From Bowmanella denitrificans (GTDB lineage Bacteria > Pseudomonadota > Gammaproteobacteria > Enterobacterales > Alteromonadaceae): DNA of 64,000 bases. The stretch's first letter is position 1. The number at the start of each line of letters is the position of its first letter. The notes under the pieces are model-generated. The model saw nothing but the letters and a program-made list of their open reading frames with translations, searched no databases and was not told the origin of the DNA. The stretch is from the NCBI RefSeq assembly GCF_002887595.1, contig NZ_PEBU01000003.1, positions 124,001 through 188,000 on the forward strand. Direction: 5' to 3'. A program made the position numbers and the translations under genes. Positions 49,984-57,158 of the stretch are shown here, in pieces.

Positions 49984-50784
49984 GTGAATGTAGAGCCGTT
50001 ATCCATCGACTCCACTTCACCTGAATCTCTATTAAGCGGTATTGCTTCAGGGAAGAAAGGATCTGAACAGATGCTGGTCAGTTTGTACTGGCGCCGTTTG
50101 TTCTTTATTTTGCGCAGCCGCTGCCAGGACCCTGAACTGGCCGCCGATCTCACTCAGGATACCTTCCTCACCGTCATCCATGCGGCCAGAAACGGCAGCA
50201 TCGACAACCCAAAGGCATTGGGCGCTTATATCAAAAGCACTGGTATCAGCTTGCTAATCACTCATTACCGCAAGGAACAGCGCCGCAAAACCGAGGCCGA
50301 CGAGAATATTGACCAGGTGTTTGCTGATGTCCGTAGTGATCTGCAGCAGCAATTAAGCACGGAACAGCTAGTAAGTATCGTGCGCCAGCTAATGGCAGAA
50401 ATGACCAATGAACGGGATAAGCAACTACTCATTCAATACTTTGTGCAAGGCTGTGACAAAACACAAATTTGCGAGCAGTTTGACCTGCCTCCTGCACACT
50501 TTGACCGGGTATTATTTCGGGCCAGGCAACGATTAAAGCAAATGCTGCAGACCCGGCTGAATCTTGATATCGATAAGGTTGGGCTGTCACATTTATTGCT
50601 TTTACTGCTGGCAATGATGCAAATCCCCTCACCTGCTGTACCTCCTTACCTAAATTCTCAATATTGGCTGAGAGAAATTCAGGCTACGACTCACCCAATA
50701 GCTATGCCAGTCAGGGATGACGGCATTTTTTACTCTGGAGCACTGTGGTACCAGCCAGGAGGACAACAACATGCATCAAACTGA
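49984..50784 (+). CDS. ECF-like RNA polymerase sigma factor
   Basis: A 266-residue sigma-70 family protein. Region 2 is DPELAADLTQDTFLTVIHAARN, and region 4 is TQICEQFDLPPAHFDRVLFRARQRLKQM. About 75 residues after region 4 form an extra tail with a hydrophobic run (HLLLLLLAMM), which is unusual and might be involved in anti-sigma binding or membrane contact. The start is a GTG with little ribosome-site support. Its end overlaps the anti-sigma-like gene by 14 bp. It is expected to direct transcription of the following genes and itself. Confidence 0.85.
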   Translation: MNVEPLSIDSTSPESLLSGIASGKKGSEQMLVSLYWRRLFFILRSRCQDPELAADLTQDTFLTVIHAARNGSIDNPKALGAYIKSTGISLLITHYRKEQRRKTEADENIDQVFADVRSDLQQQLSTEQLVSIVRQLMAEMTNERDKQLLIQYFVQGCDKTQICEQFDLPPAHFDRVLFRARQRLKQMLQTRLNLDIDKVGLSHLLLLLLAMMQIPSPAVPPYLNSQYWLREIQATTHPIAMPVRDDGIFYSGALWYQPGGQQHASN

Positions 50785-51424
50785 GCAGGACGACTGGCTA
50801 GCCATGGGGTTTCGCTATGTTCGAGGTGAGCTTAGCGGGCATGAACTGGATAAATTTGAGGACTATTTAATGGACAACCCTGAGTTACTTGAACAACTTG
50901 AGCTGGACAGCGTATTCGCCTCTGTCCTGCCCAAACTTGAGCTGGTAACTGTCAAGCCAGACAAGGGTTTTAATTTATGGCGCTGGTTATTTACTACCCC
51001 TATTGGCGCGTCTTTATCCGCTTCTTTAGGCACCGCTTGTGCCTGTGTATTGCTGGCAGCTTTACTTTGGCCAAACAGCAGCACCCAGATTCCTGCCATC
51101 AGCGCCAGTAATCAACTGGTGCATTTAGGTACGCTGCGCTCTACCAGCCAGCCTGAGAAAATCATAGAACTTAGTGATAAGAAGACCCAATTAATATTAG
51201 TGGTGCAACCAGTCTCTTTTGAAGATGAGAACTTTTTGGTCAATATAAAAAGTAGCAGCACTGGTAGTGAGACATCTTTAACGGCTTCAATTTCAGCAAG
51301 CGGGGACATAGTTGTTTTGATTCCATCACAAGCTCTGGTGGCAGGTAAATATCAACTCAATATCACAGGCTTAACATCTGGAATAACACAAGAATCGTCA
51401 TTTCACCTTAATAGGAGGAAATAA
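50771..51424 (+). CDS. One-TM anti-sigma-like protein
   Basis: A 217-residue protein with a short acidic cytoplasmic N-terminal part (MGFRYVRGELSGHELDKFEDYL, then MDNPELLEQLE), one membrane helix at about residues 76-100 (ASLSASLGTACACVLLAALLW) and a beta-rich outer domain. The layout is typical of anti-sigma factors; no zinc-binding HxxxCxxC is seen. AGGAGG supports the ATG at 50771, so the upstream frame from 50717 is not used. It overlaps the sigma gene by 14 bp and the peroxidase gene by one base. The signal it senses is unknown. Confidence 0.75.
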   Translation: MHQTEQDDWLAMGFRYVRGELSGHELDKFEDYLMDNPELLEQLELDSVFASVLPKLELVTVKPDKGFNLWRWLFTTPIGASLSASLGTACACVLLAALLWPNSSTQIPAISASNQLVHLGTLRSTSQPEKIIELSDKKTQLILVVQPVSFEDENFLVNIKSSSTGSETSLTASISASGDIVVLIPSQALVAGKYQLNITGLTSGITQESSFHLNRRK

Positions 51425-52866
51425 TGAGAATGCACGGATTTGCGGAAACCCATTTTGAAAACACGAAAAGCGTCACTTCGTCTGCGGTCCCCAAACCAAG
51501 TAAAGGAACATTAATCGACCTTGGGGAGATAATGTTCAATGCTCAATTCGAACGATTATCAAGTATCCCTGCTGGATATACCTTTCTTGGACAATTTATT
51601 GACCATGATATAACCCAGTCCAGCACACTAGCTTCCTTTCCTAGTAGCAACTCAACATCAGGAACATTTAATGATACCAGTCTGCAACTAGACCTGTCTT
51701 GTCTGTACATTTCCGGCTGCTATGCAGAACATCAAGACGCAGGCTTGGTAGATGAAAAAGGAAATCTGAAATTAGGAGAATCCGTAACAGACGATGGAAA
51801 AATACAGAAAGATGCGGACCTTTTACGCAATAACAACACAAAGCGAGCGTTGATTCCTGACCAACGAAATGACGAGAACCTAATAATTTCTCAACTACAT
51901 CTTCAGTTTCAGAAACTCCACAATAGTTTTGTGGAAAAGTGTAGTTACAACAGCGCTACTGATAAATTTTCTTACGCCAGAGAAATGACAATAAGCTCAT
52001 ATCAAAACATTGTGATTAATGACTTTCTTTTTGAAATTCTACACAAAGATATCTGGATGTACTATTTTGGTTCCAATAATAAAATGCCAGAGTTGTTCTT
52101 CAAAAATACAATCCCAAGAGAGTTTACTATGGCAGCGTTTAGATTTGGGCATGCAATGGTGAAGCAGCGCTATAGAGTGAATGAAAACAGAGAATTAACT
52201 TTGAATGAGTTATTCCATTTCACCGGAAATGGCAGGCTCAATGGTTATAATCGGCTCCCTTCTAGTGTGTTGGTAGACTGGGCATTATTTTTCTTTGATG
52301 CATCCTCAAAAAATGTAAATTTTTCAAAACTTATCTTCCCTGCCATCAATATAAGAATTAATGGACCAACCTGGCCGAACAACATCCTTTCCATTCGAAA
52401 CTTACTCAGAGGGAATGAAGAATCACTGTTGGATATCCAGAGCATTATTTTGAAGATTGAAAATAGTAACATCGACAAAGAAATAAAGGAATTATGCACC
52501 TTTTTAACAGAACAAGAACTAAATCCAAAAATTGAAATGGAAGAAAACAGTAATAGCATTAGAACAAGTATTAACATATTGGATAATGTGCCCGATAAAA
52601 AATCAATATTAGATAACCCGCCATTACTGTATTACTTTTTATGCGAGTCATTCTTTCGTTCCACTAGAAGGACTCCAAATGGAAAAACAAATTTTAATTT
52701 TTCAAATTCAAACAAAAATACTAAAACTCCTGATAGAAAAGTAAAAAAACTAGGGCCGGTATGCAGCATAATAATAGCTGATACATTCCATAAGATCTTA
52801 GAAAAATCAAGAGATGTTACAAATGGAAAAAATAGCAACATTAAGAAGATGAGAGATATTATTTAA
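51424..52866 (+). CDS. Animal-type haem peroxidase family protein
   Basis: A 480-residue member of the animal haem peroxidase (peroxidase-cyclooxygenase) superfamily. The distal site is GQFIDHDIT with D60 and H61, the middle segment is IPDQRNDENLIISQLHLQF, and the proximal histidine is H243 in FRFGHAMVKQRYRVN. These predict a covalently or tightly held haem and peroxide use. No signal peptide is seen, which is odd for a peroxidase. AT-rich compared with dxs. Its ATG overlaps the previous stop. The substrate is unknown. Confidence 0.85.
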   Translation: MRMHGFAETHFENTKSVTSSAVPKPSKGTLIDLGEIMFNAQFERLSSIPAGYTFLGQFIDHDITQSSTLASFPSSNSTSGTFNDTSLQLDLSCLYISGCYAEHQDAGLVDEKGNLKLGESVTDDGKIQKDADLLRNNNTKRALIPDQRNDENLIISQLHLQFQKLHNSFVEKCSYNSATDKFSYAREMTISSYQNIVINDFLFEILHKDIWMYYFGSNNKMPELFFKNTIPREFTMAAFRFGHAMVKQRYRVNENRELTLNELFHFTGNGRLNGYNRLPSSVLVDWALFFFDASSKNVNFSKLIFPAINIRINGPTWPNNILSIRNLLRGNEESLLDIQSIILKIENSNIDKEIKELCTFLTEQELNPKIEMEENSNSIRTSINILDNVPDKKSILDNPPLLYYFLCESFFRSTRRTPNGKTNFNFSNSNKNTKTPDRKVKKLGPVCSIIIADTFHKILEKSRDVTNGKNSNIKKMRDII

Positions 52867-52899
52867 TCTAACTTACTAATTGAGTCGCGGGAGATATGT

Positions 52900-53358
52900 A
52901 TGTCAAAACCAGACATCAGAAAATCTTGGGTTTACTTTAAAGTTGTTGATACGTTAGAAAATTATCAACATCCTGTTGCAGGAGACTATTTTGTCATTAT
53001 GAAAGGAGATAGAAACGACAGTCTAAAGCTTAAGTATCGTCACTTTGATCAAGCTAATGACCTGAACGAGTCTGCCATATTGAATTATTGTGAAATATAT
53101 CTTGAGGAAGGATGGTATTGGAGCATTAAAGATGACCGAAAAGGTTCATCTGGAAAAAGATTTATTAGATATATGACGACAGCATCAGGTAGTGGCGGCA
53201 CTCCGGATCTAATGTTGACCTACATTAAGGAATTGACAAAAGAAGGCGATCCTGATCAGAAAGACATACATTCAGATCTTAATGAGATAACATCCAAAAC
53301 TTCGAATGGAAACGTTAAGTCAGTTAGCGAATATGGACTTTGGTTGTGTGAAAATTAG
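52900..53358 (+). CDS. Small unrecognised protein of the CHAT unit
   Basis: A 152-residue hydrophilic protein with several tyrosines and tryptophans in the first half (DTLENYQHPVAGDYFVIMKG, YLEEGWYWSIKDDRKGSSGK) and a polar, low-complexity second half with GSGGTP. No family is recognised and there is no signal peptide. It begins 34 bp after the peroxidase and overlaps the CHAT protein start by 26 bp, so its translation is probably coupled to it. In known CHAT protease systems a neighbouring small protein is often a substrate or activator; that is only an analogy here. Confidence 0.7.
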   Translation: MSKPDIRKSWVYFKVVDTLENYQHPVAGDYFVIMKGDRNDSLKLKYRHFDQANDLNESAILNYCEIYLEEGWYWSIKDDRKGSSGKRFIRYMTTASGSGGTPDLMLTYIKELTKEGDPDQKDIHSDLNEITSKTSNGNVKSVSEYGLWLCEN

Positions 53359-56300
53359 TATTTTTCTGCTACTGATTTATGTATTGGTCGGCGTTGAAAA
53401 GAGTGAAGCAGACTGCCAATCAGAACTAAAAAATAGACGTTTTCTAACCGAATATGCCATAAAGGGTGCAGATGAGTTACTCATTGTAGACAAATCTGCA
53501 TCCTTCTTCACTTCTTTCTACTACGATGACGAAAAATTAGAAATCAGCGCATTATCTTTATCGCCATTAAAAGAACTCATTATAGTCCCTGACTATTATA
53601 AGAATATTAAAAAAAGGCTCTGCGTTTACTTACCTGATATAAACGAAGCCAATGAAAACAATGAGCCTATTGACATAATTTTTTCCACATCAAACTCCCC
53701 TGAATTGTTAGAGATAGCCTTATTAGCCAAAGAGTGGGAAAGTGAAAATTTTACAGATAAGACAAAAAGCAGTTATGAGAATCTATTAAAAAAACTTCAA
53801 TCTAACAAAAGCCAATACATTTCTGCATTTCTTTTCACATACTTCAATACACTTTGGTCAGCAGCTCAATTTGAAAAGATAATGTCTGCCTACGAAAAGC
53901 TAGAAAAAAGTTTACTTTCACCCGACGTTTCCGTACATATTGGCATCATATATGTTGACGCAGTACTTAAGCTCAAAAAGGCAGCACTGGCAGAAAGTGT
54001 ATCCATGGATTTGCTAACTAATACTATGGAACTACAGCTATATCAGAGAATACATTTAATTGTCTTGTTGTCCGAATCACTCCTATCACAGAACAAATTG
54101 GCATCGGGATTTGCATACCTTCAGGAAGTAGAATATTTACTCAAACTTGAGTCAAAAAAGCAATATGTACCACATAGGGTATTACTAGAATACTACGACA
54201 ACAGGGCATATTACTGGCTTAAGAAATTTTACGCTGAAAAACACACTTCGCATCTCAGAACAGCCTTGATAGATGAATATAAAGCGCTCCATCATTCTTA
54301 TTTTTTGGCTGATCTGACTAAGAACCAACAGGTAATGAATAACATTGCCTGGATTAAACGAAGTCTCTGGATGCTGGAAAGTGCTAGCGAGACCTATTCG
54401 CGATCATTGGCATTAAGCATTGATAATGACAATAGCTTTAGCCGGGCACTATCATTCCGAAACCTGGCTAACCTGGAATATTCGTTAGGAAATTATCAGC
54501 AGGCCATTACCTATTTTTTACAAGTGCTTCCTTTCTCTGAGTCCTCAATGCCCAGTTGGTATACCGACAGCCTATGTGCATTAGGCAATGCCTATCGCTA
54601 CCTGGAGGACAAGCACAATGCCAATGTATATATGGCGCTTTGCCTTGATAGCACTAGAGCTTTTTCAACCACTTATACGAGTCGCCTGACAGCTTTAACC
54701 GATTACTACCATAGTGAAATCTATCCTGAAGAAGTACGTGAAGAAGTGTTGGGGTTACTTGAAAAAGTACCGGAACCTCAAGACAAGATCAAAGCGTATT
54801 TATGGCTGGCGAAAGCATCACTGGTAGCAAACAGGCTGGATGATGCAGCTGACTATTTTCGAAAAGCAAATGTACTTTCTTCTGGTGCTTCAGACCCGGT
54901 GTTAAAGATCCAAGTGAGTATGGAGGCAGCGACAGCGCTGCTGCAAAGGTCACAACAGCAAGCATTGCCCTATATTGAACAAGCGCTGGATGATATTGAA
55001 AAGATCAGGAAGGAACTTGATCCTGAACTACTAGGTCCGGCCTGGAGTCAGAAAGTTTCCGATTTTTATAATAGGCTAATAGGACAACATTTAGCCGACA
55101 GCGAATTTGATATTGCGTTTAATCTATACGAATCCTCTTTGGCAGCCAGTATGCGCAAGGTTTATGCCGTAAAGGATATAACCACAGACGAGTCTCGACT
55201 CACTAAGATAAGCAGCATAGCTGCAAAAATGGCTGTCGACGGCGCACAAGACAGTTCTCTCGAACTGAGCATTGAGAAGCGACTACTTAAGCTTGATAAG
55301 CCCGGAGCTATCCAGTCCCCTGTTTTACAGGAATTAATGTGGTACCAGAACAACAAAGAAAAGCTGCAGGAAGTTGGCCCAGCTGAGCTTATACCCGCCC
55401 AGACATTAACAGAAATTCAGGAAAAGCTAGTCCAAGGGCAAATCGTCCTCGCCTACATAGAGTTACAGCAAGAGCTTGGCGCATTTATTGTATCTCATGA
55501 TTCTTTTATCTATCGAAGCTTGAGTGACATTAAGAAACATCAGGACAATCTATCAGGGTTACAACAAAAACTTCGTTCACCCGACCAGAATCCCTGGCCG
55601 ATTCTTAAGAAGATGTCATCTTACCTGATACCGGCTGAAGTATCTGAGTCAACAGCATCAGAAGCCCTGATCATCACCAGCCCCAGTTTAAGTGCCTTTC
55701 CTTTTTCGGCAATCCCGACTAAACAGGGCAAACTTCTAATTAATGAATTGAAGCTAAAACAGATCCCTTCTACTACCAGCCATTTTCTTCCGCGCACCGA
55801 TATTAAGCGCGATGCTCTGGATCTAGCTATCTTCTCTTCCCCGATAACAACCCATGTTGCTAGTTCAGAGCAAGAACAACAGAACTGGGCGAATAAGCTA
55901 CCGCGATTGGAATGGTCAAAGTATGAAGCCAATGGTTTAAAGGACATTTATAGAGATAAAAACACCATGCAGTTTTTGCAGGAACAAGCAAATCGACAGC
56001 AACTCCTCAGTCAAAATGTCAGGGAAGCCCGAATTCTGCATATCGCCACACACAGCTACTTTAATCCGAATCAGCCAACAAACGTAGGGTTTACACTGAG
56101 TTTATGGAATGAGGGGAGTTATGACCCTGGTTTTGTTACATTTTCCGAACTTTACAGCCACTCATTTCAAAATGACTTGGTTGTAATAAACGGTTGTGAG
56201 TCTGGTCTGGGTAATACTTTTAGATCAGAGGGAATGCAAGGTATGGCAAGAGGCTTTCTGGTCAGCGGCGTTAACAACGTTATCGCTACGCTGTGGCCAA

Positions 56301-56464
56301 TTTCGGATAAAGTTTCCGCGGAATTTATGCTCAGTTTTTATCGCCACCTGGGTGATTCAAAAGACTATGCTAAAGCGCTACAACAGACCCAGATAGAATT
56401 TGCCAGCAATCCCCGCTACCGCCATCCATTTTATTGGGCAGCTTATACACATTACGCGAGATAA
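53333..56464 (+). CDS. Exported TPR-repeat protein with C-terminal CHAT protease domain
   Basis: A protein of about 1043 residues. The N terminus is a signal or anchor sequence (MDFGCVKISIFLLLIYVLVG). The middle (about 300-650) has TPR-like helical repeats (LANLEYSLGNYQQAITYFLQ, DDAADYFRKANVL). The C-terminal 320 residues are a CHAT domain (caspase-like, HetF-associated): the catalytic His is H907 in HIATHSYF and the catalytic Cys is C955 in VINGCESGLGNTF, followed by GMARGFLVSGVNNVIATLWPI. The frame is open to 53306, but the ATG at 53333 places the signal at the N terminus. Target and trigger are unknown; location outside the cytoplasm is predicted. Confidence 0.85.
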   Translation: MDFGCVKISIFLLLIYVLVGVEKSEADCQSELKNRRFLTEYAIKGADELLIVDKSASFFTSFYYDDEKLEISALSLSPLKELIIVPDYYKNIKKRLCVYLPDINEANENNEPIDIIFSTSNSPELLEIALLAKEWESENFTDKTKSSYENLLKKLQSNKSQYISAFLFTYFNTLWSAAQFEKIMSAYEKLEKSLLSPDVSVHIGIIYVDAVLKLKKAALAESVSMDLLTNTMELQLYQRIHLIVLLSESLLSQNKLASGFAYLQEVEYLLKLESKKQYVPHRVLLEYYDNRAYYWLKKFYAEKHTSHLRTALIDEYKALHHSYFLADLTKNQQVMNNIAWIKRSLWMLESASETYSRSLALSIDNDNSFSRALSFRNLANLEYSLGNYQQAITYFLQVLPFSESSMPSWYTDSLCALGNAYRYLEDKHNANVYMALCLDSTRAFSTTYTSRLTALTDYYHSEIYPEEVREEVLGLLEKVPEPQDKIKAYLWLAKASLVANRLDDAADYFRKANVLSSGASDPVLKIQVSMEAATALLQRSQQQALPYIEQALDDIEKIRKELDPELLGPAWSQKVSDFYNRLIGQHLADSEFDIAFNLYESSLAASMRKVYAVKDITTDESRLTKISSIAAKMAVDGAQDSSLELSIEKRLLKLDKPGAIQSPVLQELMWYQNNKEKLQEVGPAELIPAQTLTEIQEKLVQGQIVLAYIELQQELGAFIVSHDSFIYRSLSDIKKHQDNLSGLQQKLRSPDQNPWPILKKMSSYLIPAEVSESTASEALIITSPSLSAFPFSAIPTKQGKLLINELKLKQIPSTTSHFLPRTDIKRDALDLAIFSSPITTHVASSEQEQQNWANKLPRLEWSKYEANGLKDIYRDKNTMQFLQEQANRQQLLSQNVREARILHIATHSYFNPNQPTNVGFTLSLWNEGSYDPGFVTFSELYSHSFQNDLVVINGCESGLGNTFRSEGMQGMARGFLVSGVNNVIATLWPISDKVSAEFMLSFYRHLGDSKDYAKALQQTQIEFASNPRYRHPFYWAAYTHYAR

Positions 56465-56525
56465 GCCTGAGAGAAACAAGCACTCTCTGTCACTACTTTA
56501 AAGTACAACCTACAGAGTTAAAACC

Positions 56526-57158
56526 ATGAATTCGATTGCTCCTGCAACGCCGGGGTTATGGCAGCTTATAGCTGAAAGGCTTACAGAAAATTGGCTTAAG
56601 TTTGCAATGGCCCTGCTGTTATCCATGCAGCTTGGTGATGTATATCAAAACACAACATTAACAAGCATAAATGGAAACAAAGCCAGTACGGAAACCCCGG
56701 AGTTAACCAACTTCCAGCAAAACCTGTCTGACATAATTGACAGTAAGTTTAACCAGATAAGCGCTAGAACCTATGATCATAGTATCAATACGCAATCCAT
56801 AGTTAGGGAAGATCTTCATCAACATATTCAAATGATTAACAGACAACTGAATCTGGCCTATCAGCAGCAAATGCAACTAATGGAATCAAACCAAGAGCAA
56901 AGTCGTTCAATGGATGAGATCCGTGAAGACCTGAAGTTGATTAATGACCAGATAAAAATTGCACAGTCCTATGCCAGGGTATTTGAACAAACCAACTCAT
57001 TGTTAGTAAGAGTAATTTCGGATTTCAATGTGACTTTGAAGTCAGATGCAGTGAACCAACAACTGGGGATGATAAACGAAACACTAGCAGAACTTGAATC
57101 GGCCAACCGAAGTCTAAACCGGCACCAGAATCTTACCAGTCACACCCAGCCCAGATAA
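56526..57158 (+). CDS. One-TM coiled-coil protein
   Basis: A 210-residue protein with a hydrophobic segment at about residues 22-38 (NWLKFAMALLLSMQLG) and long, Gln/Glu-rich helices after it (INRQLNLAYQQQMQLMES, MDEIREDLKLINDQIKIA) typical of a coiled coil. No family is recognised. It lies 60 bp after the CHAT gene, and its last 19 bp overlap the convergent pgpA end. Being adjacent and co-oriented, it may be a membrane scaffold or regulator of the CHAT system. This is inference from position. Confidence 0.65.
   Translation: MNSIAPATPGLWQLIAERLTENWLKFAMALLLSMQLGDVYQNTTLTSINGNKASTETPELTNFQQNLSDIIDSKFNQISARTYDHSINTQSIVREDLHQHIQMINRQLNLAYQQQMQLMESNQEQSRSMDEIREDLKLINDQIKIAQSYARVFEQTNSLLVRVISDFNVTLKSDAVNQQLGMINETLAELESANRSLNRHQNLTSHTQPR

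Follow-up and report, generated by a model that had tools for sequence, protein, structure and literature searches.

What would bring an extracytoplasmic function (ECF) sigma factor, an anti-sigma factor, a haem peroxidase and a caspase-like CHAT protease together in one apparent operon? The question is raised by a stretch of 64,000 nucleotides from the 5.48-Mb draft genome of Bowmanella denitrificans (contig NZ_PEBU01000003.1, positions 124,001 to 188,000), called the window below, in which a first-pass annotation had described six tightly spaced plus-strand genes as a candidate uncharacterised unit. All six open reading frames (ORFs) were found where it had placed them, and its spacings were reproduced with genes 2 and 5 read from their likely starts (Table 1): genes 1 and 2, 2 and 3, and 4 and 5 overlap by 14, 1 and 26 bp, respectively, and gaps of 33 and 61 bp separate genes 3 and 4 and genes 5 and 6. 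Across genomes, genes 1 to 5 are a real, recurrent operon-like unit. As to its function, we consider it moderately likely, judging from the sequences, that site-1 cleavage of the anti-sigma factor is the dedicated task of the exported CHAT protein, and that the sigma factor thus freed raises the peroxidase.

The recurrence of the unit is clearest in the window's own family, where the peroxidase family PF03098 occurs in 39 of 295 genomes and CHAT in 44 of 295. We compared 38 family loci around PF03098 matches, omitting genome G163 (its matches are mirrored in G182) and a further seven peroxidases of full length. With the window and locus L003 of the same genome added, 26 loci in 24 genomes carry this type of peroxidase followed by CHAT, and in all but one of these (L054) a sigma and anti-sigma pair lies just upstream. 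A diverged second copy of genes 1 to 5 (L003) is present in the window's own genome, the two peroxidases being 33% identical; since its amidohydrolase-like neighbour is also found beside the unit of a congener, this copy looks resident. Locus L040 has sigma, anti-sigma and peroxidase, the last at a contig end before any CHAT could follow; L035 and L046 have the peroxidase only, and a phmmer comparison of another 11 (L061-L071) gave no sigma, anti-sigma or CHAT of the unit kind. Several loci are close kin (L038/L044/L048 and L050/L055/L057), so that the 25 complete loci do not represent 25 independent events.

Outside the family, a profile search of species genomes for the peroxidase gave at least 80 loci, and in five of those listed CHAT lies directly behind it: in Aestuariibacter sp. 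AA17 (the L043 locus), Povalibacter uvarum, and metagenome-assembled genomes (MAGs) of Alteromonadaceae, Rhodospirillales and Pseudomonadales. Three others (L097, L105 and L144) contain a weak match to CHAT at some other position, and the remaining listed loci have none. Gene order varies: the Rhodospirillales MAG reads peroxidase, small gene, CHAT, sigma, anti-sigma; the Pseudomonadales MAG has its sigma pair behind CHAT on the opposite strand; and in Povalibacter a sigma and anti-sigma pair sits on a separate contig (L213) without CHAT in 16 kb. Full sets were found in the three MAGs and in L181, which belongs to a different family of the class and is the one unit among 11 class regions with strong peroxidase matches, among the matches listed and with several contigs short. 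At the phylum level, peroxidase matches were obtained in 39 of 398. Together these make a comparison set of 31 units (L092 left out), 29 of which have the sigma pair, with the anti-sigma gene adjoining the sigma gene in each.

The regulatory part of the unit also occurs by itself. Sigma, anti-sigma and CHAT stand together without a peroxidase in six of 20 further CHAT regions of the family by profile (L073, L074, L076, L077, L080 and L082) and in one of ten of the class (L184). The order is CHAT, sigma, anti-sigma, small gene in all of these except L082, which reads sigma, anti-sigma, a 135-residue protein, CHAT. CHAT was found in 10/10 further genomes as well; among 20 regions from eight of these, mostly Acidobacteria, eight carry a linked or fused pair of sigma-like and anti-sigma-like proteins, all in Acidobacteria, with L215 as an additional case. 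In two acidobacterial loci, L215 (2500-6147, 1215 aa) and L233 (3765-7409, 1214 aa), a single chain runs from an anti-sigma-like domain through a transmembrane (TM) segment to tetratricopeptide repeats (TPRs) and CHAT, and both genes lie directly behind a sigma-like gene. The anti-sigma-like domain is recognised by zf-HC2 barely over the cut-off in L215 and by profile similarity in L233. Since the trio recurs both with and without the peroxidase, the peroxidase and the gene 4 protein look like one payload among others.

The gene 5 protein matches CHAT (PF12770, 6e-49) and TPR families and no others, and its CHAT domain has the His-Cys dyad of clan CD. Both residues are invariant in all 26 aligned CHAT proteins; the first-pass annotation had picked out the same pair as H907 and C955, which are His916 and Cys964 when counted from the first ATG. 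With the CHAT profile, matches extend to TPR-CHAT/Csx29 chains and, weakly at an E of about 0.03, to separase. In a model of separase the S1 residue is Asp1082 (PMC4626109). A mapping of the invariant Asp1001, 37 residues past Cys964, onto this S1 pocket was dropped, as the separase Asp lies 42 residues past its Cys. An N-terminal hydrophobic stretch (12 residues of mean hydropathy at least 1.9 within the first 65, a hydropathy measure rather than a trained predictor) is present in 26 of the 31 CHAT proteins, the other five reaching 1.72-1.88, whereas none of 31 peroxidases and none of 28 small proteins has one. The earlier prediction that the CHAT protein leaves the cytoplasm and the peroxidase stays is thereby borne out at the level of hydropathy. 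Other CHAT proteins with an export signal were seen in L087, L088 and L089, preceded by two proteins, one very large and the other of 568-590 residues, by reading possibly a two-partner secretion arrangement.

Gene 1 matches TIGR02937 over residues 29-188 (8.3e-18) and Sigma70_r2 (PF04542, 1.8e-9), its region 4 scoring under the Pfam cut-off. Its C-terminal extension holds a hydrophobic stretch by hydropathy (residues 196-212; window 50569-50619), as do those of 20 of 30 unit sigma factors; such an extension is unusual for an ECF factor. Gene 2 encodes a helical N-terminal domain, one TM segment (residues 99-117 by hydropathy) and about 118 residues outside the membrane, with a periplasmic beta-sandwich. 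By sequence, then, these are an ECF sigma factor and an adjacent one-TM anti-sigma factor, as first annotated, and binding between the two is predicted. The structural model of the anti-sigma factor is of modest confidence (predicted local distance difference test, pLDDT, 59.9; below 50 for residues 70-144), with helices at 18-73 and 105-116 and strands at 148-233; a fold search with it gave nothing at E 0.001 or better, the best match (1.4e-3) being immunoglobulin-like.

Where could such an anti-sigma factor be cut? A 26-row alignment of anti-sigma factors (A3; 19-31% identity to that of the window) has three invariant columns, of which L39 and E48 belong to the cytoplasmic helical domain and Arg141 is the sole one outside the membrane. 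In the window protein Arg141 sits 24 residues past the TM segment, in a low-confidence loop that links it to the beta-sandwich. Across the set the Arg lies 16-27 residues out from the membrane, most often within (Y/F)L[D/E]xxR[S/G]; the window version is HLGTLR-ST, and an acid occupies P4 in 21 of 30 unit anti-sigma factors. Arginine followed by S, G or N occurs 15-28 residues past the TM segment in all 30 (L040 counted); in 1000 shuffles of the periplasmic parts the motif appeared in 2.8 of 30 on average and in 10 at most. Seven of the eight anti-sigma factors from CHAT loci that lack the peroxidase have it too, four of these seven being near-identical, and both acidobacterial fusions carry R-G between the TM segment and the TPRs (IEGTR-G and LLETR-G). 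Control anti-sigma factors of the RskA_C type, 14 proteins from 12 of 39 family genomes for which the TM search range was wider than for unit proteins, have no Arg in the motif window (0/14). In Povalibacter, Arg-Ser lies 36 residues past the TM segment (L213). The recognition core of separase is (D/E)xxR with Arg at P1 (PMC4626109), and the region around Arg141 is therefore a conserved, separase-like candidate site for CHAT, the motif suggesting cleavage with Arg at P1.

Gene 3 belongs to the peroxidase-cyclooxygenase superfamily (An_peroxidase, PF03098, 9.5e-16), in agreement with its first identification, and its profile matches lactoperoxidase and myeloperoxidase chains. The superfamily signature of a distal GQxxDHD, a distal RxxE and a proximal His with Asn, as given in PMC4420034, is present as GQFIDHD at 56-62, R148..E151, H243 and N326. 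In a 25-row alignment that includes two rows not from full units, Q57, H61, R148 and H243 are invariant and N326 is conserved at 90% or more. Of the 30 units readable at the first Asp of the distal motif, which forms the ester bond, eight have D there and 22 have A, S or T. Both the peroxidase and the CHAT protein look intact as enzymes, with haem binding and catalysis predicted. Between the two, a script located a gene of 122-212 codons in 28 units, and inspection of the reading frame added L045. In L058 and L059 this gene is missing; there the peroxidase directly adjoins CHAT and has about 150 further residues, with a comparable W motif at its end. By position, gene 4 or a peroxidase extension in its place is accordingly found in 31 of 31 units, and the two extended peroxidases hint that the gene 4 protein is a peroxidase partner. 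The small proteins are 16-20% identical, and phmmer ties that of L003 only to L034, L038, L044, L048 and L051; by eye, a Y..P motif and the C-terminal W suggest one fast-evolving family. An AlphaFold model from six rows reached a pLDDT of 36.5, so that no fold was predicted.

In the mechanism that we propose, the one-TM anti-sigma factor would hold the sigma factor at the inner membrane, while the TPR or N-terminal region of the exported TPR-CHAT protein would read an envelope signal. CHAT would then cut the anti-sigma factor on the C-terminal side of the conserved Arg, a short way out from the membrane, and the stump would be cleared by host proteases of the RseP/ClpXP kind, by analogy. The released sigma factor would drive its own operon, the output being the cytoplasmic short haem peroxidase with the gene 4 protein, probably for peroxide detoxification or for the production of reactive oxidants. 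Compared with the stress- or damage-activated protease pathway first suggested for the locus, this is more specific in naming the anti-sigma factor, with its conserved candidate cleavage site, as the substrate; the inducing signal is, as before, something we infer. A broader version, to which we would give close to an even chance, holds that in at least two phyla an exported separase-like TPR-CHAT protein, encoded with or fused to an anti-sigma factor, is a dedicated, Arg-specific site-1 protease for signalling across the membrane, with one branch adding a myeloperoxidase-type enzyme.

Table 1. Genes of the unit and its surroundings, with the candidate cleavage site, in window coordinates
Feature	Position	Strand	Basis
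Gene 1, ECF sigma factor, 266 aa	49984..50784	+	TIGR02937, PF04542, hydropathy
Gene 2, membrane anti-sigma factor, 235 aa from first ATG (likely start 50771)	50717..51424	+	Position and alignment
Candidate CHAT cleavage site, Arg141 codon in anti-sigma LGTLR-ST	51137..51139	+	Invariant column, motif counts
Gene 3, short haem peroxidase, 480 aa, without signal peptide	51424..52866	+	PF03098
Gene 4, small fast-evolving protein, 152 aa, C-terminal W motif	52900..53358	+	Position and motif
Gene 5, predicted exported TPR-CHAT caspase/separase-like protease, 1052 aa from first ATG (likely start 53333)	53306..56464	+	PF12770, TPRs, N-terminal hydrophobicity
Gene 5, CHAT codons His916 and Cys964	56051-56053 and 56195-56197		
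Gene 6, N-terminal hydrophobic stretch, coiled-coil-like by reading	56526..57158	+	Outside conserved unit

Several observations weigh against cleavage of the anti-sigma factor by CHAT. The window site itself has Gly at P4, and nine of the 30 sites lack an acid there; in L086, whose sigma pair was assigned by reading and not by profile, the R-G falls outside the motif window, at +8; and in a five-row realignment (A6) the Arg column loses its invariance through a shift of the L096 row, although the L096 protein has R-G at +27. The conserved Arg could simply be structural. Seven unfused acidobacterial anti-sigma factors have mostly longer linkers, and while by eye an Arg followed by G, S, E or A opens the periplasmic domain in all seven, the strict 15-28 window misses most of them, which makes the acidobacterial Arg suggestive only. 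Of two acidobacterial anti-sigma factors without CHAT in the stretch examined, one (L123:3363-4283) has no such Arg, and the other (L131) has an ambiguous Arg-Asn nearby. The acidobacterial sigma genes are no more than sigma-like, the two scanned matching region 4 at E 0.0024 (L233) and 0.016 (L123), under the Pfam cut-off. As for autoregulation, no common promoter motif emerged upstream of the sigma genes, the best pair being present in six of 29, against five in one shuffle, by a crude bipartite search of 4+4-mers. Furthermore, the lack of an export signal places the peroxidase on the other side of the membrane from CHAT, and the window's gene 4 protein matched only itself among the units by phmmer, leaving its position and some short motifs as the basis for homology. 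Two of the 31 units with peroxidase and CHAT (L054 and L093) have no adjacent sigma pair, which is also missing from most other CHAT regions: 14 of 20 in the family by profile, nine of ten in the class and 12 of the 20 mostly acidobacterial ones.

These last two points would fit a role for CHAT as an effector, with DegS/RseP cutting the anti-sigma factor, the sigma factor inducing CHAT and peroxidase for damage control or self-killing, and the Arg being structural. CHAT proteins act as effectors elsewhere, and the window's CHAT matches the PADLOC models BovA (1.7e-9) and SAVED_CHAT (0.0018); peroxidase and CHAT also show the highest correlation of protein distances (0.93), that of sigma and peroxidase being the lowest (0.65), with all values inflated by common species history. 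We nevertheless find this alternative somewhat unlikely: sigma, anti-sigma and CHAT stay together where the peroxidase is absent, an anti-sigma-like domain is fused to CHAT in two Acidobacteria, and the Arg is missing from all 14 control anti-sigma factors.

Could the peroxidase, the small protein and CHAT instead be one enzyme system, in which for instance CHAT processes or activates a released, oxidant-making peroxidase and the sigma pair merely sets the dose? Their order is kept where the sigma pair lies elsewhere or is absent (L054, L093, L095 and L096), L058 and L059 have, in place of the small gene, an extra C-terminal domain on the peroxidase, and the top distance correlation would be expected. 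Against it stand the missing export signals of both the peroxidase and the small protein and the retention of CHAT in relatives without peroxidase, and we regard it as unlikely.

A mobile, defence-like cassette, sensing an attack such as by phage and killing or arresting the cell through peroxidase and CHAT, is highly doubtful. It would draw on the setting of the window copy, which is inserted between dxs and pgpA (opposite strand, its end at 57140; both names by reading), on a dip in G+C to 0.34 at 52-54 kb, the surroundings being at about 0.50, on downstream neighbours that vary from genome to genome, and on the PADLOC matches of CHAT. The other five proteins, however, yielded no PADLOC match apart from a weak one of the sigma factor (SspE, 0.0074), the flanking ORFs read as housekeeping genes, and the second copy looks resident. 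In each of the four congeners searched, dxs directly adjoins pgpA at a distance of 33-145 bp, and the entire segment of about 7.3 kb, which takes in gene 6, is thus an insertion in the window's genome; at its ends we found no common direct 10-mer and a single short inverted match. In different genomes the unit (L037, L042, L052 and L057) stops just before a convergent hslU-like gene, a possible insertion hot spot, and genes read as patatin-like phospholipases lie near two units (796 bp past CHAT in L047; L003:10976-11929).

Finally, a chance cluster, which the first-pass annotation had allowed for should the genes prove seldom neighbours, can be dismissed for genes 1 to 5, where we found nothing in its favour, by the 25 of 26 family loci, the paralogous copy in the same genome and the conservation beyond the family; gene 6 was found at the window locus alone. 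Phmmer gave it no match among the ORFs of the 39 other loci compared, and the conserved unit is therefore genes 1 to 5, gene 6 being rejected as a member. Of the six-gene unit first proposed, five genes stand. For genes 2, 4 and 6, Pfam and NCBIfam scans gave no convincing family.

How does a CHAT protease that would release a sigma factor relate to systems already described? DegS, a serine protease with a PDZ domain, is encoded at a separate locus. The DegS-RseA-sigmaE system, also mentioned in PMC10028731, is alike in that a periplasmic site-1 protease cuts a one-TM anti-sigma factor. The window protease differs as a caspase-fold TPR-CHAT cysteine protease by prediction, without a trypsin-like PDZ domain among its matches, that lies inside the operon and is fused to an anti-sigma-like domain in the two Acidobacteria. 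Among the nearest in mechanism is Craspase with CASP-sigma, of type III-E CRISPR, in which the TPR-CHAT protease Csx29 cuts the sigma inhibitor Csx30 and so lifts inhibition of an ECF-like sigma factor (PMC10028731). There the protease is activated by RNA via Cas7-11, whereas the window CHAT has an export signal, and Csx30 is reported to have no essential residue at the cut site, unlike the one-TM anti-sigma factor with its conserved Arg; the same observation counts against the proposed cleavage. No PADLOC match to Cas7-11 or Csx30 was obtained among the six proteins and the flanking ORFs read as housekeeping genes, no search for a CRISPR array having been made. CalpL-CalpT-CalpS, likewise among the nearest mechanisms, combines a dedicated protease, an anti-sigma factor and an ECF sigma factor, its protease being of the Lon type with a SAVED domain and responding to a cyclic nucleotide (PMC11417357). 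In group ECF54, CHAT, subtilase or carboxypeptidase neighbours have led to a proposal of proteolytic control without an anti-sigma factor (PMC8999054); compared by that description, the unit shares CHAT near an ECF sigma factor and differs in the anti-sigma gene that adjoins it.

The peroxidase resembles short bacterial peroxicins (family 5; PMC4420034) in its size and in the signature residues described above. It differs from them in that 22 of the 30 readable unit peroxidases lack the ester-forming Asp, and in that a profile built from the units scores most of these above other bacterial members, with L094 (283 bits) overlapping. Peroxidase domains within open frames of about 1800 residues in L061 and L062 resemble the long peroxicins of the same paper.

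The first-pass annotation was aware of no described system with this combination of genes. In part this needs qualifying, given that CHAT-sigma-anti-sigma loci exist without the peroxidase and that an association of CHAT with ECF factors is in print for ECF54 (PMC8999054). In a literature search that covered few subscription journals we recognised no prior account of an exported CHAT protein cutting an anti-sigma factor, or of a unit of peroxidase and CHAT; we judge the system to be a previously undescribed form of the regulated proteolysis of anti-sigma factors, a novelty that such limited coverage does not prove.

If the proposed cleavage is real, the [D/E]xxR cutting rule of separase would operate in a bacterial envelope switch, outside CRISPR, which would tie bacterial CHAT proteins to the recognition rule of separase and give the exported ones a testable substrate and cut site. 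The fused anti-sigma/CHAT proteins would be natural reagents for such a test. It would also supply a regulatory home for one branch of the short bacterial peroxidases, the unit enzyme being a relative of the human antimicrobial peroxidase of blood cells.

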